From a virus: a stretch of DNA of 46,442 bases. Of the stretch, positions 2,965 through 45,546 are shown piece by piece (within the stretch, counting starts at the first letter, position 1; every line of letters starts with the position of its first letter). Below the pieces are notes generated by a model, which saw only the letters and a list, made by a program, of their open reading frames with translations, was not told the DNA's origin and ran no database searches. The stretch is from IMG/VR virus record IMGVR_UViG_3300025011_000077, positions 1 to 46,442 of that record; one strand, given 5' to 3'. Position numbers and translations under genes: made by a program.

Positions 2965-3810
2965 ATGAAAAGTCATATAACCACATACAGCTTTATTAAG
3001 AAAGATGTGAAAGAGTGGTACAATCTAGAAGTGTTTAATAGAAGAACTCAGCAAAGTTTATACTGGTTAGGCTTTATATATGGAAACGGTTCACTCAGCA
3101 CTAAAAAGCAACCAAGCGAGGTATCAGTTACATTCCAAGGTAAAGATGAAAAGCACTTACACATGCTAAGAGAACTACTATGTCCTAAGGCTAGGGTAAG
3201 AAATCATTCAGATACTTCTACCACAGATACAAGGTTAACAGTGTCTTTTTATGACTATGCCTTACACACTCAGATCACTAAGACAGGACTACCCCCCAGA
3301 CACAGAGGTGTTGCTGGTGGTACTATGAACCCGCCACTAACTATCTATCGCAACACTCATCACTTTATAAGAGGTTATATAGATGGTGTAATCATCCTAG
3401 AAAAAGATGCCTTAGTCATACCGAGAATAAATGAGAGATTTTTAAACTGGATCATCACTAACACAGGTGTACTAGGCAATAAAGAGCTCAACACATCATT
3501 CCCACCTTTACACCCTGGTAAGCAGTGTTGTAAATGGACTATCAAGAATCCATCTGAACTATCTAAGTTACACAGCTATTTGTATGATGACGCAAATATA
3601 TTTTTAAGCACAAACAAGGTCACTATGCAGTTGCTATCCTCTGCTAATATAACCTCATCTTTACTACTGTCTTGCCTAAGATCCGCCAATTGCACAAACA
3701 CTGCACAAACACTGCACATTCTTTTAAGTACACTTCCATCCAGCCTATCTAGAATCCGGTTTCAATTTATAAAACCTGCCCCACCCATACCACCCGGCTA
3801 CACTTATTAA
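2965..3810 (+). CDS. LAGLIDADG-family homing endonuclease, catalytically degenerate
   Basis: A 281-residue protein with two LAGLIDADG-type helices about 100 residues apart, as in single-chain enzymes. Helix 1 is LYWLGFIYGNG (residues 32-42) and helix 2 is FIRGYIDGVII (134-144). The metal-binding acid expected near the end of each motif is replaced by Asn41 and Val142. Cleavage activity is therefore doubtful, and the protein may be a maturase-like or decaying copy. It stands alone in a gene-poor region, typical of a free-standing mobile gene. Confidence 0.7.
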   Translation: MKSHITTYSFIKKDVKEWYNLEVFNRRTQQSLYWLGFIYGNGSLSTKKQPSEVSVTFQGKDEKHLHMLRELLCPKARVRNHSDTSTTDTRLTVSFYDYALHTQITKTGLPPRHRGVAGGTMNPPLTIYRNTHHFIRGYIDGVIILEKDALVIPRINERFLNWIITNTGVLGNKELNTSFPPLHPGKQCCKWTIKNPSELSKLHSYLYDDANIFLSTNKVTMQLLSSANITSSLLLSCLRSANCTNTAQTLHILLSTLPSSLSRIRFQFIKPAPPIPPGYTY

Positions 3811-3831: not shown

Positions 3832-3860
3832 TTGACTTTTTCGCAGATCCATGGTATAAT
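3832..3860 (+). promoter_or_regulatory. Early-type promoter P1 driving a probable small RNA
   Basis: TTGACT (3832-3837), a 17-base spacer and TATAAT (3855-3860). It belongs to the family of near-identical promoters found through 4-13 kb (TTGACTTTTTC and a conserved spacer). Here the bases before the -10 are CCATGG rather than CCGTGA. No gene begins before the terminator at 3956-3990, so it appears to drive a short RNA. Confidence 0.85.
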
Positions 3861-3866
3861 TTGAAA

Positions 3867-3990
3867 GTCAGAAGGATGTCTCGTGGGTTAATGGCTCGCG
3901 TAGTCTTTCTGCCATACCTCCTCAGTATGAAGTTTCATACCCTTCATACTAACTGGCCTCACCTCTTCCGTAGCAGGTGGGGCAATTTTT
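3867..3990 (+). ncRNA. Putative phage small RNA with an exposed anti-Shine-Dalgarno sequence
   Basis: Predicted ends are about 7 bases after the P1 -10 box and the T-run at 3986-3990. Three stems are visible. CAGAAGGA (3869-3876) pairs with TCTTTCTG (3904-3911). AGTATGAAG (3924-3932) pairs with CTTCATACT (3942-3950). GCCTCACC (3956-3963) pairs with GGTGGGGC (3976-3983), followed by AATTTTT as a terminator. The linker between stems 1 and 2 contains CATACCTCCT (3913-3922). This is the exact complement of AGGAGGTATG, the ribosome-binding site of at least five early genes here. A 56-codon frame starts in the RNA but has no usable ribosome binding site. The regulatory role is inference. Confidence 0.55.
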
Positions 3991-4017
3991 ATCCATTCCT
4001 CTACCAGGTAACCTTAC

Positions 4018-4046
4018 TTGACTTTTCCTCCGGCTCGTGATATAAT
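4018..4046 (+). promoter_or_regulatory. Early-type promoter P2 for the 4098-4829 genes
   Basis: TTGACT (4018-4023), a 17-base spacer ending CTCGTGA, and TATAAT (4041-4046). The TGA before the -10 makes an extended -10 element. About 50 bases of leader precede the AGGAGGT site of the gene at 4098. Confidence 0.88.
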
Positions 4047-4097
4047 GAAAATGGAGGCGGAGGGTATGCCCCACCTACCAAAAAATAGGAGGTACGT

Positions 4098-4301
4098 ATG
4101 ATGGATGTTGAGCTAGAGTTCAAAAAATGCCTAGATGAGTGTCACCTAGAACCTCAAGAGGCATTCCAAGATGTAACCATTCGCTTAATGGAACTAGATC
4201 TGCCTAGTGATGAGGTAGGGGTTAATATGAAGCTATTATTCAAAGTGTATGAGACTCAAATACAGATAGACTACTATGGGAGAGATGATAGTGATGAATA
4301 A
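4098..4301 (+). CDS. Small acidic early protein
   Basis: A 67-residue acidic protein, probably helical (VELEFKKCLDECHLEP, then FQDVTIRLMELDLP). The first of two adjacent ATG codons follows AGGAGGTACGT. It is the first gene after promoter P2 and its end overlaps the start of the next gene. Family not recognised. Position and promoter suggest an early, host-directed role. Confidence 0.6.
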   Translation: MMDVELEFKKCLDECHLEPQEAFQDVTIRLMELDLPSDEVGVNMKLLFKVYETQIQIDYYGRDDSDE

Positions 4302-4659
4302 CCCATTCGAGCAATACTTATCAGGTTGTGCAGGTAAGACTATCCATGAGGCCTTCCCCACTGAGGACGGTATCCAGATTATCTTTACTGATAACACCAC
4401 CTTAACACTGGAGGTTAGTGAGGACCACGACATAGAGATAGTGGAGGCCCAACACCTTAGGCTGGGTGCTGATAAGTTCTCAGTGTCTTACAGCCCTAGA
4501 CGTGGTGAGGTGTATGTAATGGATACCTCTGGTAACGTTAAGTTTACCTTATCTGAGGATGACACCCTAGTTGATGTAGCAGAGCTATCTAATGATAAAT
4601 TGTTCAGCTGGGTACTAGACACCCACTACCAGGAATTAGAAGCATTTGATTTGGTATGA
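4294..4659 (+). CDS. Early protein, distant paralogue of the 6127-6507 product
   Basis: A 121-residue protein. ATG 4294 (MNNPFEQYL) is chosen because GGGAGAG lies at a suitable distance; an ATG at 4276 would add six residues. The C-terminal third (VYVMDTSGNVKFTL, then WVLDTHYQELEAFDL) aligns by eye with the end of the minus-strand product at 6127-6507 (VLYVRDLTGVVRLEV, then WLLAEHHDTLVSLDL). The pair suggests duplication and inversion of an early gene. Function unknown. Confidence 0.62.
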   Translation: MNNPFEQYLSGCAGKTIHEAFPTEDGIQIIFTDNTTLTLEVSEDHDIEIVEAQHLRLGADKFSVSYSPRRGEVYVMDTSGNVKFTLSEDDTLVDVAELSNDKLFSWVLDTHYQELEAFDLV

Positions 4660-4670
4660 GGAGGCTAGCC

Positions 4671-4829
4671 ATGTACTGTGGATACTTTTACAGCTACTGC
4701 GATGACATAATGTTCATGCTAGAGCGTTCATACCACACTCGCCCACCGGCCATTAATGGCCCTAGGGCGTGGGTAGGTGGCCCACTACAACCCTATACCC
4801 CACCAGTACCCGTGGTTAAATCACTATAG
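4671..4829 (+). CDS. Small Tyr/Pro-rich early protein
   Basis: A 52-residue protein starting MYCGYFYSYCDDIMFM, with a Pro-rich tail (PYTPPVPVVK). It starts 11 bases after the previous stop with GAGGAGG upstream. It is the last gene before the terminator at 4893. No family recognised. Confidence 0.5.
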   Translation: MYCGYFYSYCDDIMFMLERSYHTRPPAINGPRAWVGGPLQPYTPPVPVVKSL

Positions 4830-4892
4830 CTAGTATAACGTAAAGCGTATAATGTGTAAAGCGGGCTACATGCCCTACTGAAAATAAAGATA

Positions 4893-4925: not shown

Positions 4926-4949
4926 GTATGCATTGGCGGGTAGCCAGGG

Positions 4950-4973
4950 TAGCTAGGGGGAGGTTTCATTTGA
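4950..4973. repeat. TAGCTAGG box, copy 1
   Basis: TAGCTAGGGGGAGG then TTTCATTTGAA, a variant of the intergenic box repeated eleven times between 4.9 and 13.3 kb. Here it follows a plus-strand terminator, whereas the others lie upstream of minus-strand promoters. All copies read in the same direction on the plus strand. Confidence 0.6.
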
Positions 4974-4983
4974 AAGAGTCAAT

Positions 4984-6507: not shown

Positions 6508-6563
6508 TTTTACATACCCCCTGCTTTGCTGTAGGTGGGCGTAGCTCGCCCGACCTCATTTTC

Positions 6564-6897: not shown

Positions 6898-6978
6898 ATC
6901 ACATACCCCCTTCTTCTCTATGGTTTAATTTATTCGGGTGGGGTTGTACTAATTCCTAGAGGGTATGGGGGTAGGCAT

Positions 6979-8147: not shown

Positions 8148-8205
8148 ATTTACATACCTCCTATATATGGTGTAGGCGGGGGCATACGCCCCGGCCCCAC
8201 AAATA

Positions 8206-8575: not shown

Positions 8576-8959
8576 TTACTCCGCAGTAACTCCACTAGCC
8601 TTAAGGGCCATGATAACACGCATTCGCAGGATAGCCTCATGGTCACTGAACTCATACTCTACGGAGTGTTCACTAGCCATCACCATTAGCTGCTCTATGC
8701 TATACACCTTCCACCCGCTAGCCTTTTTAGCCTTACTTGGTGCCTTGGGAAAGTGTAGGTAAAGAATCTCCATGCACATTCTCATACGGTTAATAGCTGG
8801 GTTTTCAATACAGGGCTTATGTGTTAGGCCCTCTAAGGCTAACCACTCCATTAGTTGCTCATCAGACAGCTTCTTATATACCTTCTTGAGATCCCTATCT
8901 ACCTTGAATGTCCCTACCTCAGGATACACAGGTGCTACCACTACAGTTTTCTTAGCCAT
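8576..8959 (-). CDS. Early protein family A, paralogue 1
   Basis: A 127-residue basic protein. It shares its whole length with the products at 11059-11460 and 12558-12950. Common blocks are VYPEVGTFKVD, LKKVYKKLSD, INRMRMCM, LHFPKAPSK and FSDHEAILRMRVIMA. Predicted mostly helical with a conserved Trp/Lys segment (SGWKVYSIEQL). This is the most diverged of the three. Function unknown; the strong promoter and early context suggest a host-directed role. Confidence 0.72.
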   Translation of the reverse strand: MAKKTVVVAPVYPEVGTFKVDRDLKKVYKKLSDEQLMEWLALEGLTHKPCIENPAINRMRMCMEILYLHFPKAPSKAKKASGWKVYSIEQLMVMASEHSVEYEFSDHEAILRMRVIMALKASGVTAE

Positions 8960-9029
8960 TATACATACCTCCCATATCTAGCAGTAAGGATCTCCTAGCT
9001 ACGGGCCAGTGTCCCCTGCTGATGTTTTT

Positions 9030-9058: not shown

Positions 9059-9102
9059 GTACCAACAGGGTCCTGATGTATGGCAGGGCGGGATAGGTGT
9101 TC

Positions 9103-9205
9103 TAGCTAGGCGGAGGCTTCAATTAATAAAGGTATGCATGTAGCTAGGTGGGGACTACCAATATGGTCGCTAGACAGGCTAGCTAGGCGGGGGCTTCATC
9201 TAATG
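9103..9205. repeat. Three tandemly spaced TAGCTAGG boxes, copies 2-4
   Basis: Copies at 9103-9127, 9141-9163 and 9180-9205. The best read TAGCTAGGCGG, then GGCTTCATCTAATG. They lie between the terminator at 9266 and the promoter at 9030, with centres 40 bp or less apart. Confidence 0.7.
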
Positions 9206-9265
9206 GAGCATGCGGGTGTTCATCTATAGAACATAACTAGGAACATCCTACCTGTAAAAGTGCAT

Positions 9266-9664: not shown

Positions 9665-9716
9665 ATACTCATACCTCCTATATCTAGCAGAGGATCTACA
9701 CCACCCCATGTACACA

Positions 9717-10187: not shown

Positions 10188-10252
10188 ACTCATACCTCCT
10201 ATATTCTAGCCAGGGTATCTACCCACCAGAGTAGCTCCTCAACCGATGATTA

Positions 10253-10281: not shown

Positions 10282-10325
10282 GTACACCCACCCCCCCGCC
10301 CTAGCCCACCGGACGCTACGCGCCC

Positions 10326-10351
10326 TAGCTAGGCAGAGGCTTCATCTAATG
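10326..10351. repeat. TAGCTAGG box, copy 5
   Basis: TAGCTAGGCAGAGG then CTTCATCTAATG, between the terminator at 10369 and the promoter at 10253. It is preceded by CACCGGACGCTACGCGCCC, which recurs with one change before copy 8. Confidence 0.7.
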
Positions 10352-10368
10352 CACTAGGAAATGGGCAC

Positions 10369-10402: not shown

Positions 10403-10717
10403 CTACCTATTATCTGGCACCCCTATCCGCCCTATCCTGCTCAGTATGGACCCCTTACCCTTAGGGGTGGTACCCATTAGTCTCTGATACATGGCTGAAC
10501 GTGTTACACCTGCATCTTTAGCTATCACTGATATACGTTCACCTGATATGAATCGCTCCACCATACGCACCTGCTCATCAGTATACCCATTCACCCAATC
10601 AGAGTGTTCTCTAGTTATATCTGCATAACGCTCACGTGCCCTATCTATCTTAGATGCCTTCACTAGCATACCTCCTGTAATGGAGAGTACATGACTCTCA
10701 CACACTGATATAGTCAT
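10403..10717 (-). CDS. Helix-turn-helix early protein
   Basis: A 104-residue protein. Residues about 44-82 (GYTDEQVRMVERFISG, then VIAKDAGVTRSAMYQRL) match the resolvase/Hin-type helix-turn-helix pattern, so it probably binds DNA. ATG 10717 follows AGGAGGTAGTGA. Third gene of a three-gene cassette headed by paralogue 2. It is a candidate reader of the TAGCTAGG boxes or the TTAGA operators, but nothing links it to either. Confidence 0.68.
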   Translation of the reverse strand: MTISVCESHVLSITGGMLVKASKIDRARERYADITREHSDWVNGYTDEQVRMVERFISGERISVIAKDAGVTRSAMYQRLMGTTPKGKGSILSRIGRIGVPDNR

Positions 10718-11460: not shown

Positions 11461-11577
11461 CATACATACCTCCTATATATTTTTTGATACCCCTCACATA
11501 TTCAGTTGTCACAGACCACCGGGCTAGGTACGAGTCACCCGGCACCCTCGGTACCGCTCTCCCTCAACCCTGAAATA

Positions 11578-11606: not shown

Positions 11607-11650
11607 GTACCAGTAGGGTCCTGGCATATGGCAGACACGGGTAGGTGTGA

Positions 11651-11727
11651 TACCTAGGCGGGGCCTTCATCTAATGGGAATGTGCAGGGTGATATGTGGT
11701 GTAGCTAGGTGGAGGCTTCATCTAATG
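11651..11727. repeat. Two TAGCTAGG boxes, copies 6-7
   Basis: Copies at 11651-11676 (TACCTAGGCGGGG, then TTCATCTAATG) and 11702-11727 (TAGCTAGGTGGAGG, then TTCATCTAATG), between the terminator at 11745 and the promoter at 11578. Confidence 0.7.
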
Positions 11728-11744
11728 GCCCGTTAACGGGCATA

Positions 11745-12215: not shown

Positions 12216-12282
12216 CGTACGTACCTCCTTGCCTAGCTAGGGTGGTCTCCACCGCTCTCGTGTGCCCCCTGCTGACACTCTA

Positions 12283-12950: not shown

Positions 12951-13023
12951 ATACCCATACCTCCTGCATCTAGCACCGGGATCTCCAGCACCCGTCTGGT
13001 GTGTGTCCCCTGCTGATGTTATT

Positions 13024-13052: not shown

Positions 13053-13097
13053 GTACAGAAAGTACCCTGTGGTATGCGTGTGGGGTGGTATGTGATG

Positions 13098-13174
13098 TAG
13101 CTAGAGGAACGCTTCATATATTGGGGGATGGTGGAATGGTAGGTGGAGTAGCTAGGGGGACCCTTCATCTAAAT
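13098..13174. repeat. Two TAGCTAGG boxes, copies 9-10
   Basis: Diverged copies at 13098-13123 (TAGCTAGAGGAACG, then CTTCATATATTG) and 13149-13174 (TAGCTAGGGGGACC, then CTTCATCTAAAT). An eleventh, weaker copy (ATCTAGGGGGGACC, then TTCCTATTAAA) is at 13278-13303. Confidence 0.55.
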
Positions 13175-13359
13175 AAGCACGGAGGCTTATTCGCTTACCC
13201 ACCAATACCCCCACCACCAATCCTAGGCTTTATTAGAGAAATCTAATACAGTACAAATATATTTTGTATCTCTCTTATCTAGGGGGGACCTTCCTATTAA
13301 AAGAGACCTGAACTTGGGTTCGAGCCTTTGGGTCGGAGCGGGTGTGAAAACCCTAAAGC
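13175..13359. other. Divergent control region without a gene
   Basis: Together with the boxes on its left this makes about 360 bases without a gene between minus-strand promoter 13024 and the plus-strand gene at 13412. It holds the third TTAGA operator (13231-13248), the near-palindrome TACAAATATATTTTGTA (13252-13268) and the weak eleventh box. GGGTTCGAGCC near 13317-13327 resembles a tRNA T-arm, but no tRNA can be folded around it. Confidence 0.5.
13231..13248. promoter_or_regulatory. Third copy of the TTAGA inverted-repeat operator
   Basis: TATTAGA-GAAA-TCTAATA, identical in both 7-base arms to the site at 135-152. It lies between divergent transcription units, about 110 bases upstream of the plus-strand promoter at 13360. 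Confidence 0.5.
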
Positions 13360-27498: not shown

Positions 27499-29128
27499 TG
27501 CTCAAGACCTCCAGACAATTCTTATAAACAAGATACCATCTCTTTGGACTCTACAGCACAGGTTCATCAAGGGGAGACCCCTAACTTTCACTAGTGCCAC
27601 CGATCCAATCAGACATCGTCCTTGGCAGGTTGCTATATTAAATGACCAACACCCAAATTTAGTTACCCGTAAGTCTAGACAACTGGGGTTGTCTGAAATA
27701 GGCATAACTTCTATAGTTCATTTCTTGGATACTCACCCTAATACAAAAGCAATGTATACATTCCCTAGACAGAAACAGCTAGAGGACTTTTCTAATACCC
27801 GCATTACTCCAATCTTCAAAGAGTCTCCCTATCTTACTAAGAGACAAGATTTATCCTTGAACAATGTAAGCCTAAAGAAACTCACAAATAACTCCATTCT
27901 GTTCTTACGGTCTGCCTGGGGGGGAAATATGGGTGAAGGTATAGACATAGACTACTTAGGACTGGATGAATACGATAGAATGAGTACGGGTGTTGAGTTG
28001 GCGTTCATGGAATCTATGAAATCGTCCAAGTATGGCCTGCTGCGCAGATGGTCTACCCCCACTATTCCTGGAAGAGGGGTAGATTACTTATTTAATAAGT
28101 CTGACCAAAGATTTTATCATCATAAGTGTGAGCACTGTAATGAATGGCAGATACTCACACTCGAAGACAACCTTATCCAAATAGATTCTACGGGAGTAGA
28201 TATAATAAATGAACAAATCCGTGATAACACCTATGCGTTCTTATGCTCCAAGTGCCATCGACCTTTGAATAGATGGAATATTGGGGAGTATGTTGCCATG
28301 TTCCCCAGCAGGACTGAAATAAGAGGATACCACATTTCCCAGCTAGATTCGGTATGGATATCAGCGGATAGCGTTATGCGTAATCAATTTAGTTACAAAG
28401 TAAAGCAACTCTTCTATAACTATGTAATTGGTATCCCTTACGCCTCCGAGGGTCTTGTCATAGTAGATCAAGATATTTTAAATTGCATATCCTACGATCA
28501 ACCCATTGGATTCAGAGATTACTCTAAGTACAAGAAAGTATTTGCTGGAATAGACTGGGGATATATGTCCTGGTTAGTTATACTTGGCTTAACAGAGGAT
28601 AATCAGATAGAGTTATTAGATCTACACTGGGTGCCAGAAAATCCTAACAAGCCATTAGACAACGTCAATGTATTTACAGCCATACTAAAGCCCTATAACC
28701 CAGATGTCATAGTGGCAGATGCTGGATATGGTGCAGATAGAAATACTTATTTACTACAACAATTCCCTGGCAGGGTATTCGCTTGTAACTGGGGAACTTC
28801 TAAGGACAATATACCAATTGTTGATAATTGGAGTGATAACATTCAGCAAGTGCGAGTAGATAAAACTGTTAAGATGAAACGCACCCTGTATAACATCAAA
28901 AGTAGGTCTTTGAGAACCTTTGGTAGATGTGAGAAGCTCGAAATGCTTATAAAACACCTAAAAAACGTGCGCACCATGATGGAGGAAGAAGATGGCCTAA
29001 TCTATGAGAAGGTAACAAGAATAGGTCCGGACCATACTGCATGTGCGTTAACCTATGCCTACATCGCTGTGGATCGTGTACTTGGCTTGCACGCACCTAA
29101 ACAAAACTTCAACTTTGATTTTATGTAA
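27488..29128 (+). CDS. terL: Terminase large subunit, GpA-like
   Basis: A 546-residue protein. ATG 27488 (MSINAQDLQT) follows AGAGGAGG; an upstream in-frame start would overlap that site. The ATPase domain has an altered Walker A (TRKSRQLGLSE, residues 60-70) and Walker B (DYLGLDEYDR, 155-164). A four-Cys zinc finger (CEHC 214-217, CSKC 253-256) follows. The nuclease domain has Asp355 (FAGIDWG), Asp411 (VADAGYG) and an Asp near 527 (GPDHTACALTYAY). It packages DNA into proheads at the portal. Normal length for the family. Confidence 0.93.
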   Translation: MSINAQDLQTILINKIPSLWTLQHRFIKGRPLTFTSATDPIRHRPWQVAILNDQHPNLVTRKSRQLGLSEIGITSIVHFLDTHPNTKAMYTFPRQKQLEDFSNTRITPIFKESPYLTKRQDLSLNNVSLKKLTNNSILFLRSAWGGNMGEGIDIDYLGLDEYDRMSTGVELAFMESMKSSKYGLLRRWSTPTIPGRGVDYLFNKSDQRFYHHKCEHCNEWQILTLEDNLIQIDSTGVDIINEQIRDNTYAFLCSKCHRPLNRWNIGEYVAMFPSRTEIRGYHISQLDSVWISADSVMRNQFSYKVKQLFYNYVIGIPYASEGLVIVDQDILNCISYDQPIGFRDYSKYKKVFAGIDWGYMSWLVILGLTEDNQIELLDLHWVPENPNKPLDNVNVFTAILKPYNPDVIVADAGYGADRNTYLLQQFPGRVFACNWGTSKDNIPIVDNWSDNIQQVRVDKTVKMKRTLYNIKSRSLRTFGRCEKLEMLIKHLKNVRTMMEEEDGLIYEKVTRIGPDHTACALTYAYIAVDRVLGLHAPKQNFNFDFM

Positions 29129-29141
29129 CGGGGGTGTCAAT

Positions 29142-30884
29142 GTGGAATTACTTGTGGTAGCGAGATCATCTGAAGATAGGCATCATGTAATCCTTAGATG
29201 GGGAAAGCATTATGGGGTAGTAGAAAAAGGAATGAAACCATCTCAGGTAAAATGGGGTAAAAAGGATATACTGGATAGGTCTCTTACCGGAAAGAACTTT
29301 GAAGAGGTAGAACCCCCAGTTGTATTCCGACCAGTGGTTAAAAAATCATTGAGCTCGGGATTAACTTTGTATTTAGACGTGCGCAAATCTCACCAACTCA
29401 ATTTTGGTCACCTAGTTAAACGAGCGGTTCAGGTTAAAGGTAAGAATGGTAAACAATTTACCCGCATGCAGTGGGTAAACCCCGGACAGGCCAGTACTGG
29501 CCATGGTGTGAGAAGAATTAACAATTCTAAGGACTGGCTAAATGCTGTGGGTGATGGAGTTATGAAACACCCCATGCACAAACAAGCTATGGAAGATCAG
29601 GGAGTTGACATGGATAAGCATCATATTTATGGTGAGCATCCCGCATTTTTTGTACCTGAGACCGCTGAATCAAGGAAAGGTAAAACTGGAAGAGATTTCA
29701 TCCCCCACAAGGACAGTGAATTTAGTAAGAGATACAATGAGAACCAGGAATCTATCAGTAGTGAGACAAAATCAGATGTAGATAAAGGTATAATACGTAC
29801 AGAAGTATCTGAGTTACTGAGAGACTACAAAGCAGGTAAATCTCTTGCCCCTGTTTTTGATTCTATGGAGTCAATGTTCTTAAAAGGGACCACTCGTCAG
29901 AAATACCTTAGTTTGAGAGAAGGCATGAGTAAACACTGGAAAACCTTACACCCCCAAATTGAGGAATCTATATCTTCTAGTAATAGTTCTGAGTATGCAA
30001 AAAAGATTCAGCTATCAACCTTAGACCGTATATCCAAAATGACAGATTCAGGTAAGGATGGTGTTAATAAAGACCTTGCTGTGATGGCATCTCATCCCGC
30101 TGTTGCTAAGTACGCGGTGGATAAACTTTTAGGCAGGGAAAGAGCTAATGTTCTCAGAGCAAATATGAGGGATGGAAATCTAACCATCAATACTAGTCAA
30201 AAGCATCTTGACAGTATACTGAAAGATGGTTACGTAGCAAATACCTCAGAAGATTATGTAAGGTCTAGGGGTACCAAAAGGGACATCCGTGAATATAATA
30301 AAATAGCAGATAGCAATGTGGATATGGATGCTAAACTAGAGATGATACAAGACATCATTGATAGTGATCCTAGCGAAGAGCGAAATAGCCCTTCAAACAT
30401 TATGTGGCGTAACATATCAGACAGAGCCGAAGCTGAATATTTGTGTATGGGATTAGATATAGGAGATAATATAAAGCCTAATTACCTGGCTTTTAATCCC
30501 GATGGCAGTTCTCTAGGGGCCTGTACATCTTACGGAGATGGAACCTCCATCAAACTAAACTCTTCGATATTGAAAGACTGTACGGGTAATATGTCTGACA
30601 CTTTCTATAAAACCCGGCCAATAGCTAAAATACATGATATGGATCACTTAAAGGACATATACATGCTGCGCATGATGCATGATGCCCAAGGTGGTGGAGA
30701 TATTTTTAAGGACATCCCCGAATGGGCTAATGGTGATCACATGTGGCCTGAAGATGTACCAGTTGAGTTGCACTACCACAAACCACGAATAGACCCTGAG
30801 CTTATTAGTGTCAATGGCAACAGACCAGATAGTTATGAGGACTACGAGGAAGAGGATGAAGGCAAATATGATAATTGGGGGTAG
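29142..30884 (+). CDS. Tagged protein 1: N-domain, VQVKGKNG tag and ADP-ribosyltransferase-like C-terminus
   Basis: 580 residues from GTG 29142 (GGGGGTG upstream). Residues 1-85 form domain N (HVILRWGKHYGVVEKGM, PPVVFRPV, LTLYLDV), shared with the stand-alone product at 30890. Residues 91-114 hold the tag (VQVKGKNGKQF then TRMQWV), encoded by DNA identical to that at 31802-31864. Residues about 345-560 (TINTSQKHLDSILKDG, then AEAEYLCMG, YLAFNPDGSSLGA, YGDGTSIKL, ending VELHYHKP) resemble the ADP-ribosyltransferase-like/DUF3626-type domains of phage head-associated proteins. It follows terL closely, in the place usual for portal or minor head genes. Enzyme activity is inferred. Confidence 0.62.
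   Translation: MELLVVARSSEDRHHVILRWGKHYGVVEKGMKPSQVKWGKKDILDRSLTGKNFEEVEPPVVFRPVVKKSLSSGLTLYLDVRKSHQLNFGHLVKRAVQVKGKNGKQFTRMQWVNPGQASTGHGVRRINNSKDWLNAVGDGVMKHPMHKQAMEDQGVDMDKHHIYGEHPAFFVPETAESRKGKTGRDFIPHKDSEFSKRYNENQESISSETKSDVDKGIIRTEVSELLRDYKAGKSLAPVFDSMESMFLKGTTRQKYLSLREGMSKHWKTLHPQIEESISSSNSSEYAKKIQLSTLDRISKMTDSGKDGVNKDLAVMASHPAVAKYAVDKLLGRERANVLRANMRDGNLTINTSQKHLDSILKDGYVANTSEDYVRSRGTKRDIREYNKIADSNVDMDAKLEMIQDIIDSDPSEERNSPSNIMWRNISDRAEAEYLCMGLDIGDNIKPNYLAFNPDGSSLGACTSYGDGTSIKLNSSILKDCTGNMSDTFYKTRPIAKIHDMDHLKDIYMLRMMHDAQGGGDIFKDIPEWANGDHMWPEDVPVELHYHKPRIDPELISVNGNRPDSYEDYEEEDEGKYDNWG
29415..29477 (+). repeat. 63-bp exact repeat encoding the tag, copy 1
   Basis: Identical base for base to 31802-31864. 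It encodes 21 residues centred on VQVKGKNGKQF and TRMQWV. The sequence on either side differs between the two genes. Confidence 0.9.
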
Positions 30885-31138: not shown

Positions 31139-31150
31139 GGGGTGAGACAT

Positions 31151-33772
31151 ATGGAACTTTTAATAGATTTAATAAAAGCTGGAAAAGCACACCTGCCAGA
31201 GGGTGCAGAGCGTTGTGCCTACAAAGTTCCCAACGAATATGGTGTGATTTACATACCCATCAACAGATTGAAGCAGATCTATCAGACTGATAAGGCCACC
31301 AACCAGAACAAGGTGAAATCTCTAGTGAATAAGATGAAATCACATGCCACCATTGACCCAGTTGAGATAGGCTATAATTATGATATTCAGAACGGACATC
31401 ATAGATACGTAGCTAGTGATGAACTGGGGTACACACATGTGCCTTGTGTTGTGGTTGGAACAGATGATGCTAAAATAAGAAAAGCTAAAGAGATGTACCG
31501 TTCAGTGTGGAAAAGTGATTCGGTCAGCATACAAACCATGCTAAAGCAAAATTTGCACAGCGAAGACGATGCTATACAGGACTACAGAAAATTAATAATT
31601 AATCTGACTGATCCCAAAATACGTCCAGTCATTGAAGAGATACTAAAGGATGAAGAGAACCACCACCATAACTTAGAGCAAGTGCTCTTATATGTTGAAG
31701 GGGACAAAGAAGCTTTATCAGAGAGCAAATTAAAGAAAAGTGAATTACTGTCCTTGGTGCTAGATTTAAGCAAGGCACATATGCTCCACAAGGATAAGCT
31801 GGTTAAACGAGCGGTTCAGGTTAAAGGTAAGAATGGTAAACAATTTACCCGCATGCAGTGGGTAGATCCTAAAACTGGCCAACCTGCCTCTAAAGGGCAC
31901 AAAGTTGAAGAGGACACGCAGCCTAGGCACCGTGCAGTGGAACAAACTCAAACTAATAAAGAGATTGATTGGGATGATGACTCCATATGGGGTGGGGATG
32001 AGGACAATGAGGAGGTAAGAGATAGAGATGAGGAGGAAGACGAGGATACCGGAGAAGAGCCTGTAAAAAGTAAAGATAGGCAAGAACCTGAGGAGGATGA
32101 TGCTGAAGATGAGGATGAGTTCCCATCTGTAGAGGAACTGGTGCGCAGGAAAAAGGCTAAACAAAATCCTAAGGAAGCTAAGGTTAAAACTAATACTAAC
32201 AATAGCAATAAAGGCGGTCAAACCACCTTTGTATCTGATGTTGATCATTTCGAGAATGTCATAAAGAAGAAATACACTCATGATCACATTATGGACCAAG
32301 CTGATAAACAAGGTATCACATGGCAGAGATTGGACCAATATGGGGAAATGTTCTCTCCGCCTATGAATTGGATGAGAGCTGCAAGTGCCATAAAAAACCT
32401 CATACGTAATGGTGGTGTCTTTGAAATAGAAGACAATGCCAAAGATACAGATAAGGCCATGCAAGAGAAAAGTAAAAGCACCGTGGAGAAACACTTCTTG
32501 GCACTGCTGAATAAGCACGAAGGAAATAAGCAGGAGTTTATGGAGTGGGCTCGTAATAATGATTACGGTTGGAAAGAGAAAGACGATCCAGTAATGAATT
32601 GGATGTATTTTAAAAAGCACATTATGACTTTGTTATCTCAAGGCAAAATGGTAGGTGGGGTAAGGACCCAACAGAAGGATTTGATGTCTAAAACCAATGC
32701 TATAGTTACCCCTGACATAAAAGAGCAAGTCAAGCTACTGGGACAAAATTACGATAGAAATGATATCATGTCTAGGGCTGAAGCATATGGGATAAATTGG
32801 ACAAAAGTAGATAAAAAGGGAAATGACCTCCCCCCAGCTATGGTATGGATGAGATGCTCCTCTGAAATACAGCTATGGCTGGCTCAAGGTCACGAATTTC
32901 TTATGGATGGGAAAAATCCTAACAAGGGAGTGACATCTGCTTCAGCAAAAATAGAAGATGTTAAGATAGGAAAGCATCAATCCTATGCTCTTGACTTCGC
33001 AGGGAGAAACAGCAAAAATTATGAAGAAAAGGCTCGCAAATGGGCTATAAAATCTATCATGATAGACAACCCTAAAATGACTGATCTAGATGCTGATACC
33101 TTCTATAAGAAATTTGTTTCCAATGCTTCCGAGGCACGTATTATGATACACATAGACCCACTTGAGAAATTACCTGGGGGCATAACCACACTGGACCAAT
33201 TTAGCTCAGATGGGCACCTACGCAACCCCTTTCAGATAGGCAATATAGACGCAGAGGCACAAGAGATTGCAGAACGCGAGTTATATGGGGAAGGGTTTGA
33301 TGAGGCCCCACCAAGGGAACGTCCTATTTATGGTAGTATGGATTTATTTAACCAGGGGTTGGACTCTTCAGGATATGGTAGCATAGCTCTGGTGCTAAAG
33401 AATGATGTTAAGAGTAGATCCTCTGTTACTATGGGAGATTCAAATAGCTTGCCATGGGAGACTAATGGTAAATTAACCAGACATGCCACTTCTTCTCACC
33501 AAGCCCTAATTGACAGATGGACTAGTAAATGGGCAAATCCTAAGAAGGCAGATGCTGTACGTAAGAGAGCTATGGAATCTATTGCCAGTGGCACTAGGAA
33601 TAATGACCCAGGTTTTTTTGAAACACAAATACTAGGTGGGGTGGATTTTAAAAGGGACGTGGATCATGTGCTGGTTCCACAGGATTGGAGTACTAATAAG
33701 GACCACAGGGATAAGCATGAAAAGGTTAAGGCTTTTGCTAAACTTCACGGATTACAGGTTAAGTATGAATAA
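31151..33772 (+). CDS. Tagged protein 2: ParB-like, ferritin-like, tag, repeats and ADP-ribosyltransferase-like domain
   Basis: About 873 residues from ATG 31151 (GGGGGTGAG upstream). Domains in order: ParB/Srx-like (15-115; NGHHRYVASDELGYTHVP at 81); short ferritin-like helical pair (139-175; EEILKDEENHHHNLEQ); tag (217-240); very acidic linker (about 265-320); three or more helical repeats (360-600; WQRLDQYGEMFSPPMNWM, WTKVDKKGNDLPPAMVWM); ART/DUF3626-like domain (660-840; RPIYGSMD, GYGSIALVLKNDVKSR, FFETQILGGVDF). The order resembles modular effectors. A virion-packaged role is inferred from position and tag. Confidence 0.65.
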   Translation: MELLIDLIKAGKAHLPEGAERCAYKVPNEYGVIYIPINRLKQIYQTDKATNQNKVKSLVNKMKSHATIDPVEIGYNYDIQNGHHRYVASDELGYTHVPCVVVGTDDAKIRKAKEMYRSVWKSDSVSIQTMLKQNLHSEDDAIQDYRKLIINLTDPKIRPVIEEILKDEENHHHNLEQVLLYVEGDKEALSESKLKKSELLSLVLDLSKAHMLHKDKLVKRAVQVKGKNGKQFTRMQWVDPKTGQPASKGHKVEEDTQPRHRAVEQTQTNKEIDWDDDSIWGGDEDNEEVRDRDEEEDEDTGEEPVKSKDRQEPEEDDAEDEDEFPSVEELVRRKKAKQNPKEAKVKTNTNNSNKGGQTTFVSDVDHFENVIKKKYTHDHIMDQADKQGITWQRLDQYGEMFSPPMNWMRAASAIKNLIRNGGVFEIEDNAKDTDKAMQEKSKSTVEKHFLALLNKHEGNKQEFMEWARNNDYGWKEKDDPVMNWMYFKKHIMTLLSQGKMVGGVRTQQKDLMSKTNAIVTPDIKEQVKLLGQNYDRNDIMSRAEAYGINWTKVDKKGNDLPPAMVWMRCSSEIQLWLAQGHEFLMDGKNPNKGVTSASAKIEDVKIGKHQSYALDFAGRNSKNYEEKARKWAIKSIMIDNPKMTDLDADTFYKKFVSNASEARIMIHIDPLEKLPGGITTLDQFSSDGHLRNPFQIGNIDAEAQEIAERELYGEGFDEAPPRERPIYGSMDLFNQGLDSSGYGSIALVLKNDVKSRSSVTMGDSNSLPWETNGKLTRHATSSHQALIDRWTSKWANPKKADAVRKRAMESIASGTRNNDPGFFETQILGGVDFKRDVDHVLVPQDWSTNKDHRDKHEKVKAFAKLHGLQVKYE
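31802..31864 (+). repeat. 63-bp exact repeat encoding the tag, copy 2
   Basis: Identical to 29415-29477. The copies in the products at 42628 and 45931 are similar only at protein level. Confidence 0.9.
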
Positions 33773-42589: not shown

Positions 42590-42627
42590 TTTTTAGACTT
42601 AATGAATACTGAGGAGGTGCCTTGTTG

Positions 42628-45546
42628 ATGAGGTTTTACATAGATGTAGTAAAAGGGGAAGAAGGTAAGTCTATTGGACCACGTAGACTCCATAAAGAGA
42701 GATTAGTAAGAAGGATGGTTCAGGTAAAGGGGAAAAATGGAGGGACTTACTCCCGCATGCAATGGGTAGACCCACGTGGAGATACGCCCTCACAAAAGCA
42801 CTCTAGTACGGAATCAGATACTAAGGATGCCCATCCCCATGACAGTGACCTAAAAGACCAGGTGCACAAGCTAGTGAGTAAAATGAGCAAAGAGGAGAAA
42901 TATCAGTGGTTAGACAAACATGGCATACAGTGGAAAAGGAATGATCATCCCAACACTGACCACATAGAGGCAGTAAAGGCTTTAAAAAAGTTTCTTAATG
43001 AAAACCCTCATCACCTTGATTTGGAGCACTTATCAAAAAGAGGTGGTAATGAATTAGACATAGAATCTGAGTCTGATAAACTCATGAATCCTGTTGACAA
43101 ATTGATAAACAGAAAGTCTAAGCAAGAGAAGTGGGATCTCATATCTAAATATGGAGTACAGTGGAAGGAAAACTCCAATGATAAAATAAACCAGATGCGT
43201 GCTTTCTCAGCACTGAAGCAATATTTAAAGGAAAATCTGGAATTAGCTGGGTTGTCTAAAGAAGATTTTGATAAGGCTAACGCCATGGGGGATGAAGTTG
43301 AAAGGGTAGGACAAATAGGGGAATTAGTGAAGAAAATGAGCCCCAAATTAAAGTTAGGTCTTGCCAAGCAGTATAAGATAGAGCCTGAACCTACTGGGGA
43401 CAGTAACATTGATAACATAAACCGCACTAAAGCTATTACCAAGTTTTTAAGTGAGGATGCTAAAGAGCTAGAGTTCATTAAGAGTAAGCTAGAAAAACAT
43501 GAATTAAAAAACATGAAGATTTCCGTCAAGGAAATGATGGCTATAATACGAAGACTTGGTAAATTAACCCCTAGAGAGATAAAAGCTTCAAAAGAGGATA
43601 AAGAATGGACATTCAATGACGCATCTATGGCATCTATTAATGAGGATGACAATGGTAATCCTGTTCTATCCATTATAGATGGGGAGCATGGTAAGTGGGA
43701 AGTTAAGGACATACTCCTAAAGGATGTTAAAATCTTTTTAGATGGTTTAGATGAAACTAAGGCTAAGGCTAAAGAAGCCCCTAAGTATGGTAAAGATGAC
43801 ATAGTGGGATTGTTGAAGACAATGTTTGATAAACCACAAGTTAAGAAGATGGCAGAAGGATTATGGATCTTTAGATCTAAAGATGGATCCACGGGTCAAG
43901 TAGAAATAACCTCGGAGGGGGTTACCTTTAGTAGGACTGATAAGGATTGGGAGCGTACCTGGGAACACGATGAGGTAGAAGAAGTCCTAGAGAGGTACCA
44001 CAGACCCCTACATGAAAAGTCAGTGCATGATATAAAAGAAGCTCTGGAAGATGACCCTGAACTATATAAAGGTAGGGTTAAGAAGAGAATAGAGGATAGT
44101 GTACGAGACGATATATTTAAGCATGAGGGCACTTATGGAAGATATGACTCTACAACCCTATATGCGGATGCGACCTTCGGTACTGAGCTATTAAAAACAG
44201 TGGCAAAAGAACATGCTTTTTGGGACCCCAATACTGAAGATTTAGATATACGTTCTGATGAATTTAGTGAATTTATGTACAAATCACTAGTAGATCCTGA
44301 AAAATCTAAGAATGCTATGGATTATGTTGTCACTACTTTTGGGGAAGACAACCCATGGGTATTAAAGGAGTCTGCTAAGAACTGGGAACCCATAGAGCGC
44401 AGAAAAGCTAGAAAAGAGATGTGGTCTAGCCATGGTAGAGTATCCCTAATGTTTCCTAATGATGTCAGAGGACAAATATCCAAACATTTTAACATAGTTA
44501 CGGGTCATCTACCTTTTGATATCATTACCGATACGCTAATAAAACATGGGTTATCAATTAAGGCTCCAACCTCTGATAAAGAGGATAGCCCTATATTCTC
44601 TTACGATTTTAACGATCATCAAATAACTTTACCTTACACTTGCACAGAAGATGCTGATTTCCTTGAAACCGAAGACCCCTATGAATTCCACCCCAGTGTA
44701 TCTATAGATGGAAGGTCTTATAAGGATAGTAGCCTAGGATCAACTTTAACACATGAATTTGGTCATGCTATAGATCATTTCTTTGCTGGCGGAGGGTCTA
44801 ATACCATGACTCATTGGCAGGGTAGTAAAGAGGCTATGAAGTATTTAGGTAAACATAGTAATGCTTTGTTTGAATCTTATTCTAAGTCCTTAGGAGAGGC
44901 AACTGGGAATAGTGGTAGTGGGAGCCCCTGCTCCAAAAGAGGAAACTATTATGTTCATGAGGATAACTTTCTTTCCCCGTATGAGGGGAGAATATACGGC
45001 CCCACCAACAAAGAGACAGGTCTACCAGTTGGCCTTGTAGCTACAAGCTATTCTTCTAATAATGTCATTGATACCACTTTTAAGGGCGCAACAAAACCTC
45101 CCAAAGGTGTAATTTGGGGTTGCGAACACTGGTCAGAAAGTGTATCAAAATATTCCTCTGCTGCTCATCATTATTTTAAATATATGCAGGAGACTAAGGG
45201 ACAAGAAGATTCTAAATCGTTCCCCCAGTGGTGCACAGAAGGATCTAAGAAATACCACGAAGTAAAGGTCAACTTTGACTCTAAGAATGAGTTGGAGAGT
45301 GCCCACCCAGATTTACACAGTGCATTCAGATACAAACACCTAGAGCAACACCACCCTATAATGGCAGATGCAATAGACCACTTATTAAATAGGGGAGATT
45401 TCCCTCCAAAACTAGGCGGTAACGAGGTACGTACTAGGTACACAACTAGAATAGGACCTAACAAAAAGGGGCAAGGCAGAAGGTCCAATGCGCCAACTAT
45501 TATGCCTAAAACAGCCAAATCCTTAACTTTTTATGTAAGGAGCTAA
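42628..45546 (+). CDS. Tagged protein 3: VQVKGKNG tag, helical repeats and zincin-like metalloprotease domain
   Basis: 972 residues. ATG 42628 is preferred over two TTG codons just upstream, with GAGGAGGTG at 8 bases. Tag at about residues 26-49 (MVQVKGKNGGTYSRMQWVDP). Helical repeats at about 75-290 (WLDKHGIQWKRNDHPNTDH, LISKYGVQWKENSNDKINQM) resemble those of the 31151 product. The C-terminal third has LTHEFGHAIDHFF (HEFGH at about 709-713) and WGCEHWSESVSKY, giving the two His and a later Glu expected of a gluzincin. It ends KSLTFYVRS, recalling LTLYLDV before the tag in the 29142 product. A virion protease or injected effector is inferred. Confidence 0.7.
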   Translation: MRFYIDVVKGEEGKSIGPRRLHKERLVRRMVQVKGKNGGTYSRMQWVDPRGDTPSQKHSSTESDTKDAHPHDSDLKDQVHKLVSKMSKEEKYQWLDKHGIQWKRNDHPNTDHIEAVKALKKFLNENPHHLDLEHLSKRGGNELDIESESDKLMNPVDKLINRKSKQEKWDLISKYGVQWKENSNDKINQMRAFSALKQYLKENLELAGLSKEDFDKANAMGDEVERVGQIGELVKKMSPKLKLGLAKQYKIEPEPTGDSNIDNINRTKAITKFLSEDAKELEFIKSKLEKHELKNMKISVKEMMAIIRRLGKLTPREIKASKEDKEWTFNDASMASINEDDNGNPVLSIIDGEHGKWEVKDILLKDVKIFLDGLDETKAKAKEAPKYGKDDIVGLLKTMFDKPQVKKMAEGLWIFRSKDGSTGQVEITSEGVTFSRTDKDWERTWEHDEVEEVLERYHRPLHEKSVHDIKEALEDDPELYKGRVKKRIEDSVRDDIFKHEGTYGRYDSTTLYADATFGTELLKTVAKEHAFWDPNTEDLDIRSDEFSEFMYKSLVDPEKSKNAMDYVVTTFGEDNPWVLKESAKNWEPIERRKARKEMWSSHGRVSLMFPNDVRGQISKHFNIVTGHLPFDIITDTLIKHGLSIKAPTSDKEDSPIFSYDFNDHQITLPYTCTEDADFLETEDPYEFHPSVSIDGRSYKDSSLGSTLTHEFGHAIDHFFAGGGSNTMTHWQGSKEAMKYLGKHSNALFESYSKSLGEATGNSGSGSPCSKRGNYYVHEDNFLSPYEGRIYGPTNKETGLPVGLVATSYSSNNVIDTTFKGATKPPKGVIWGCEHWSESVSKYSSAAHHYFKYMQETKGQEDSKSFPQWCTEGSKKYHEVKVNFDSKNELESAHPDLHSAFRYKHLEQHHPIMADAIDHLLNRGDFPPKLGGNEVRTRYTTRIGPNKKGQGRRSNAPTIMPKTAKSLTFYVRS

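Follow-up and report, generated by a model that had tools for sequence, protein, structure and literature searches.

A candidate Shine-Dalgarno-blocking small RNA in the early module of an SPO1-like phage

The window analysed here, a virus contig of 46,442 bases, carries at 3832 an early promoter with no recognisable gene behind it. To the best explanation that we can offer, that this locus encodes a trans-acting phage small RNA that blocks Shine-Dalgarno sequences and is aimed at the phage's own early regulon, we give about an even chance. Read from the sequence, the locus has a promoter, no recognisable gene, a stable fold, an exposed seed, and an exact complementarity that is confined to one module.

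The host-takeover module and its promoters

The terminase encoded in the window shares 68% identity with the terminase of Bacillus phage SPO1 and its relatives, and judged by its genes the window belongs to an SPO1-like phage (Herelleviridae), with no near match to the whole contig found in the phage collection. Two groups of genes match genes of the terminal-redundancy regions of SPO1 and of Exiguobacterium phage EalM-132 (L052):

1251-1916, gp36.2-like gene
8576, 11059 and 12558, three gp51-like paralogues

Because of these matches we take 3.8-13.1 kb to correspond to the host-takeover (early) module of SPO1, in which promoter-leader-gene units follow one another in series. The SPO1-type terminase, the takeover genes and the repeated early promoter-leader units all agree with this setting, as do the shared gp36.2-like and gp51-like family members and the shared layout of promoter, hairpin leader and strong Shine-Dalgarno sequence. 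The extended Shine-Dalgarno sequences of SPO1 and EalM-132, on the other hand, differ from those of this phage, and when the same script was run on SPO1, EalM-132 and the IMG/VR relatives examined, it flagged no promoter-without-gene unit. At the start of its own takeover module, EalM-132 has 1.8 kb of unannotated sequence rich in short repeats (1152-2948). Elsewhere in the window, three large late proteins (29055-30884, 31142-33772 and 42622-45546) are unlike one another apart from a shared stretch like LVKRAVQVKGKNGKQFTRMQWV (phrog_25452), which could be a common tag, for example for packaging into the virion.

Eight promoters in the 3.8-13.1 kb region share one consensus, of the TACTTGACTT...TG.TATAAT type:

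3832-3860, plus strand, early promoter, TTGACT-17-TATAAT with a TG-extended -10, 11 of 12 consensus positions
4018, plus strand, early promoter of the same family, drives operon 4098-4829
6592, 8234, 9058, 10281, 11606 and 13052, minus strand, early promoters of the same family

Seven of the eight drive a gene, with a leader and a strong ribosome-binding site ahead of it. The exception is 3832, downstream of which lie about 124 nt without a recognisable gene; the first ribosome-binding site and start past this unit belong to gene 4098, and that gene is served by a separate promoter at 4018. The sole frame across the RNA begins at ATG 3876, is 54 amino acids long, and extends through the terminator and the following promoter. 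It has no usable ribosome-binding site, because AGAAGG abuts its ATG, and no PHROGs family matches it. We rejected a coding reading of 3867-3990 for lack of a ribosome-binding site at usable spacing and of a family. The original prediction was right about both the consensus promoter at 3832 and the missing gene.

Several other features of the early region were recorded in passing. A good minus-strand promoter match (10/12, 4832-4860) lies where the plus-strand operon 4098-4829 has its 3' end, and it points antisense to that operon. A motif around TAGCTAGGNGGAGGCTTCATCTAATGG occurs in eight copies (4930-4976, 9083-9129, 9160-9206, 10306-10352, 11631-11677, 11682-11728, 13078-13124 and 13129-13175), most of which lie immediately 5' of an early promoter on the minus strand; the copies are often paired in tandem, at a distance of 51 or 77 bases, and are possible binding sites for a phage regulator. 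A repeat of similar look precedes a promoter in EalM-132, at about 3690-3765.

Fold of the predicted RNA

The anatomy predicted for the transcript is as follows.

3867-3990, plus strand, predicted non-coding small RNA of about 124 nt, 5' end placed by spacing from the -10 and 3' end by the U-run
3869-3911, plus strand, stem 1, a 9 bp lower stem, an internal loop and an 8 bp upper stem
3912-3923, plus strand, linker between stems 1 and 2, CCATACCTCCTC, with CCAUACCUCCUC as its unpaired part
3913-3922, plus strand, predicted seed within the linker, CATACCTCCT, perfect complement of AGGAGGTATG
3924-3950, plus strand, stem 2 of 9 bp, with a 9-nt loop at 3933-3941, TTTCATACC
3956-3990, plus strand, stem 3 (3956-3983) and AATTTTT, an imperfect intrinsic terminator, -15.9 kcal/mol

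Structure prediction for 3867-3991 gives the three stems that had been noticed in the original prediction, at -46.3 kcal/mol compared with -28.9 +/- 3.3 for dinucleotide shuffles (z = -5.3). Of 2,316 windows of this length in the record, only 7 reach an equal or better fold, and the complementary strand folds far less well (-33.9, z -2.2). The linker has an unpaired probability of 0.94-1.0 except at its first C (0.39), and opening it costs 0.7 kcal/mol. In the loop of stem 2, which is unpaired like the linker, CATACC recurs; it is complementary to GGTATG, and the loop is a possible second contact with that sequence, but we attach no separate significance to it since it resembles a local TTCATACC/TTCATACT duplication.

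A stem followed by a U-run is indeed present about 124 bases downstream of the promoter, as had been proposed, yet as a terminator it is imperfect: stem 3 has 9 bp plus 2 bp above a bulged C, followed by AATTTTTA, in which two As precede the five Us, and a simple terminator scanner does not list it. For these two reasons the 3' end is the least certain part of the anatomy. An automatic terminator call near the 3832 unit proved to be a chance site farther downstream and not stem 3. The locus nevertheless combines its own promoter and an intrinsic terminator, if an imperfect one, with the absence of a coding sequence.

At the sensitivities used, searches of IMG/VR, INPHARED, PLSDB and GTDB contigs turned up no homologue of the RNA. 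Exact 18-22-mers of the RNA identified no relative among IMG/VR and GTDB contigs; the one IMG/VR match (L030) was discarded as a relative, being a Shine-Dalgarno sequence ahead of an ATG on the opposite strand. Sensitive blastn against INPHARED and PLSDB gave promoter-level or chance matches only, a scan of IMG/VR for the promoter pattern gave only unrelated consensus promoters, and no Rfam family matched at the gathering threshold or at E 10. A covariance model, of weak power as it was built from a single sequence, found no homologue in SPO1, EalM-132 and ten IMG/VR relatives. The RNA therefore draws no support from conservation or covariation. Since protein-guided searches did not find close relatives of the module either, we regard this absence as uninformative rather than negative.

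The stretch might instead be the remnant of an early operon whose gene was lost or displaced next to the putative endonuclease gene, or the relic of an inverted minus-strand leader that has kept its AGGAGGTATG. The locus does lie between that gene and another early operon, and the gene content of takeover-type modules differs greatly from phage to phage. We nonetheless consider decay of either kind improbable, as a decaying stretch is not expected to fold with a z of -5.3 and still expose the match. As for an inverted leader in particular, the minus strand at 3913 (TTCATACTGAGGAGGTATGGCAGAAAG) has flanks that differ from those of the leaders, with neither the leader context CTAGATATA upstream nor a properly spaced start codon, and we rejected it for that reason. 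The endonuclease gene itself (2965-3810, phrog_4645) ends about 20 bases 5' of the small-RNA promoter, and the module may have been rearranged near it.

Complementarity to early ribosome-binding sites

The seed of the predicted RNA, CAUACCUCCU, complements the extended Shine-Dalgarno sequence AGGAGGUAUG perfectly over 10 nt. At the DNA level CATACCTCCT occurs exactly at 3913, and there are six further copies in the window. Each of the six reads AGGAGGTATG on the minus strand, lies inside the module and is a ribosome-binding site 1-5 bases 5' of a start codon:

8153-8162, minus strand, predicted target, before ATG 8147, promoter 8234
9670-9679, minus strand, predicted target, before ATG 9664
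10191-10200, minus strand, predicted target, before ATG 10187, promoter 10281
10667-10676, minus strand, predicted target, AGGAGGTATG-CTA-GTG inside ORF 10403-10717
11465-11474, minus strand, predicted target, before ATG 11463/11460, gp51-like gene, promoter 11606
12956-12965, minus strand, predicted target, before ATG 12950, gp51-like gene, promoter 13052

The arrangement at 10667 suggests that the true start of ORF 10403-10717 is GTG 10663. Sites with one mismatch were also found ahead of module genes:

8964-8973, minus strand, near target, GGGAGGTATG, before ATG 8959, gp51-like gene, promoter 9058
6513-6522, minus strand, near target, AGGGGGTATG, before ATG 6507, promoter 6592
6902-6911, minus strand, near target, before ATG 6897
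12220-12229, minus strand, near target, AGGAGGTACG, before ATG 12215
4087-4096, plus strand, near target, AGGAGGTACG, before ATG 4098, the gene that opens the following plus-strand operon, promoter 4018

Thus all five perfect sites named in the original prediction (genes 8147, 9664, 10187, 11460 and 12950) were recovered, together with a sixth at 10667 that it had missed, and its near matches at 8959 and 6507 each carry a single mismatch and are joined by those at 6902, 12220 and 4087. Counting the one-mismatch sites, the motif is present at 7/7 promoter-proximal genes. Sites with up to one mismatch to the seed number 20 where 4.3 are expected, and when the RNA was shuffled 20,000 times with its dinucleotides preserved, 8 of the shuffles contained a perfect 10-nt complement. 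As would be looked for in a trans-acting Shine-Dalgarno-blocking RNA, the seed is accessible and its complementarity to the ribosome-binding sites of its putative targets goes beyond chance; the targets are not independent events, however, because related leaders share ancestry.

The shuffling result bears on the possibility that this is a structured non-coding RNA with no connection to the early leaders, serving for instance in protein binding or as an RNase III substrate, with the 10-nt match due to chance. A strong fold, with helices of 8 and 9 bp in stem 1, would suit such an RNA; RNase III sites are annotated among the SPO1 early operons; and phages of the SPO1 family carry abundant non-coding RNAs whose function is unknown. 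But a match arising by chance about 4 times in 10,000 for this RNA, and located in the exposed linker at that, makes coincidence unlikely, if still worth keeping in mind. In a comparison by eye, the GCUAGU...AUGGAGCC arrangement seen in SPO1 RS-A to RS-D is missing from stem 1, which does not resemble those sites and was on that account not identified with them.

We then compared pairing energies, in calculations that leave out chaperones, ribosomes and kinetics. The 3' tail of Bacillus 16S rRNA is GAUCACCUCCUUUCU, and we used it as the reference. The duplex formed by the linker seed is worth -15.3 kcal/mol compared with -11.2 for this tail on the same site. At the gene starts of the early module, the mean pairing energy of the linker region is -16.5 kcal/mol and that of the 16S tail -11.9; the corresponding means are -13.5 and -12.4 kcal/mol for the other genes of the window, -10.7 and -11.0 for SPO1 early sites, and -12.4 and -11.7 for EalM-132 early sites. 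The advantage of the linker over 16S is greater for the early genes than for the other genes of the record (Mann-Whitney p = 0.0003, with genes that are not fully independent). When the whole RNA was co-folded with ten leaders, the linker settled on the ribosome-binding site in 10/10, with 8-10 of the 10 seed bases placed on the leader, and the mean interaction was -12.3; leaders of SPO1 reached -8.1 and those of EalM-132 -9.5. With the seven promoter-proximal leaders, the real linker gave -13.97 and permuted linkers -8.68 +/- 0.76, with 0 of 150 permutations as low.

These energies also speak to a suggestion made in the original prediction, that the RNA mimics the anti-Shine-Dalgarno sequence of 16S rRNA. 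As a general decoy, its ACCUCCU would compete with 16S rRNA and mainly depress host translation. The core is indeed the anti-Shine-Dalgarno sequence, the RNA lies in a host-takeover module, and the moderate pairing of the other genes of the window (-13.5 kcal/mol) is in keeping with a broad effect. Yet alignment of CAUACCUCCUCAG with the 16S tail shows identity in ACCUCCU only and none beyond this core. The flanks CAU and CAG fit the phage leaders or stem 2 and not 16S; the 5' flank, which mismatches 16S, instead lengthens the pairing with the phage's own early leaders, and the genes hit hardest would be the early ones. Since identity ends with the core and the 5' flank fits the leaders, we consider a 16S mimic rather improbable. 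The same core does tell against a Shine-Dalgarno-blocking RNA dedicated to the early regulon, as it would also pair with many host and late-phage Shine-Dalgarno sequences.

The plus-strand site at 4087 raises one more alternative, in which the locus is a cis-acting leader or attenuator of operon 4098-4829, with read-through past stem 3 allowing the linker to pair with AGGAGGTACG of the leader at 4018. The two are on the same strand, the 3' end of the RNA is 108 bases from gene 4098, the terminator is not strong, and co-folding joins linker and leader at -11.5 kcal/mol. However, operon 4098 has a full promoter of its own at 4018, its site carries a mismatch, and the minus-strand genes fit the seed better, so that a role in cis seems very improbable to us.

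A proposed early off-switch and its relation to known RNAs

In the trans-acting scheme that we favour, host RNA polymerase would make the small RNA from the phage's own early promoter at 3832, and the RNA would fold into three stem-loops, the last of them the terminator, displaying CAUACCUCCU as a single strand. The seed would pair in trans with AGGAGGUAUG, the extended Shine-Dalgarno sequence common to the host-takeover genes, and by covering the ribosome-binding site would lower translation of the entire early gene set together, so that the takeover phase would be closed or capped, probably after the RNA has accumulated. As the exposed stretch complements a signal common to the first-wave genes, it could turn down the whole set at once. 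Because its promoter is of the same class as those of its supposed targets, any delay would need to come from the stability or stoichiometry of the RNA: a stable RNA accumulating relative to the mRNAs could bring the takeover phase to a close or cap it. What we infer here is the transcription of the RNA, its pairing in the cell, and the direction and timing of its effect. The off-switch for early translation envisaged in the original prediction is thus borne out on the computational side, by the binding relative to 16S and to other genes, the 10/10 co-folds and the 0/150 permutations. More tentatively still, and with less than even confidence, we suggest that the early regulon is tied together at two levels, switched on through the promoter consensus and turned down through a shared extended Shine-Dalgarno sequence read by a single antisense RNA of the phage, and that the seed and the leaders co-evolve.

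In SPO1, the shut-off of early genes is generally attributed to proteins. Non-coding RNAs of unknown function are known from the SPO1 family; an RNA whose seed fits the ribosome-binding sites of a whole module offers a specific and cheaply testable mechanism for coordinated early shut-off. If the proposal is true, one seed with many targets would amount to a post-transcriptional off-switch for host takeover in a lytic phage. It also yields a search rule for other phages, namely to look for early promoters that lack a gene and yield an RNA in which the complement of the phage's own extended Shine-Dalgarno sequence is exposed.

Among the Herelleviridae, vB_SauM-515A1 has two abundant lncRNA regions, one with a typical early promoter (PMC7698491), phage K has seven small and two long non-coding RNAs (PMC9241854), and Listeria phage CKA15 has three highly transcribed ORFs that are probably ncRNAs (PMC12282133). 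As far as the sections of these papers drawn on here go, they resemble the present RNA in being non-coding transcripts of the SPO1 family, at least one of them from a typical early promoter, and the same sections of PMC7698491, PMC9241854 and PMC12282133 report no Shine-Dalgarno-blocking mechanism for them. We saw no sequence relationship with the present RNA, and neither CCTCC nor CTCCT occurs in the four small ncRNAs of phage K that were examined (snc001-004).

Among phage RNAs, the nearest parallel for a block on a phage ribosome-binding site is the c4 antisense RNA of P1 and P7, whose exposed segments complement the ribosome-binding region of a phage mRNA and block its translation, and which controls the ant antirepressor mRNA in P1/P7 immunity (reviewed in PMC12197685). 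Unlike c4, the RNA described here would act on about ten early genes that are spread over several transcription units of an SPO1-like phage, and no family of the Rfam library matched it even at E 10.

The closest architectural parallel is Listeria LhrC, which uses a stretch left single-stranded between two of its stems to block a Shine-Dalgarno sequence (PMC4132741). Together with RsaE, RNAIII, SprD and FsrA, LhrC belongs to the C-rich (UCCC), Shine-Dalgarno-blocking RNAs of Gram-positive bacteria, which resemble the phage RNA in being short and in using pyrimidine-rich loops and/or a single-stranded linker to pair with G-rich Shine-Dalgarno sequences (PMC4132741, PMC9217828). The present RNA differs in having no UCCC and no Rfam match at E 10, on which grounds we assign it to no known family; it differs also in being phage-encoded, and in carrying a seed that is a 10-nt fit to the extended Shine-Dalgarno sequence shared by the early genes of one phage.
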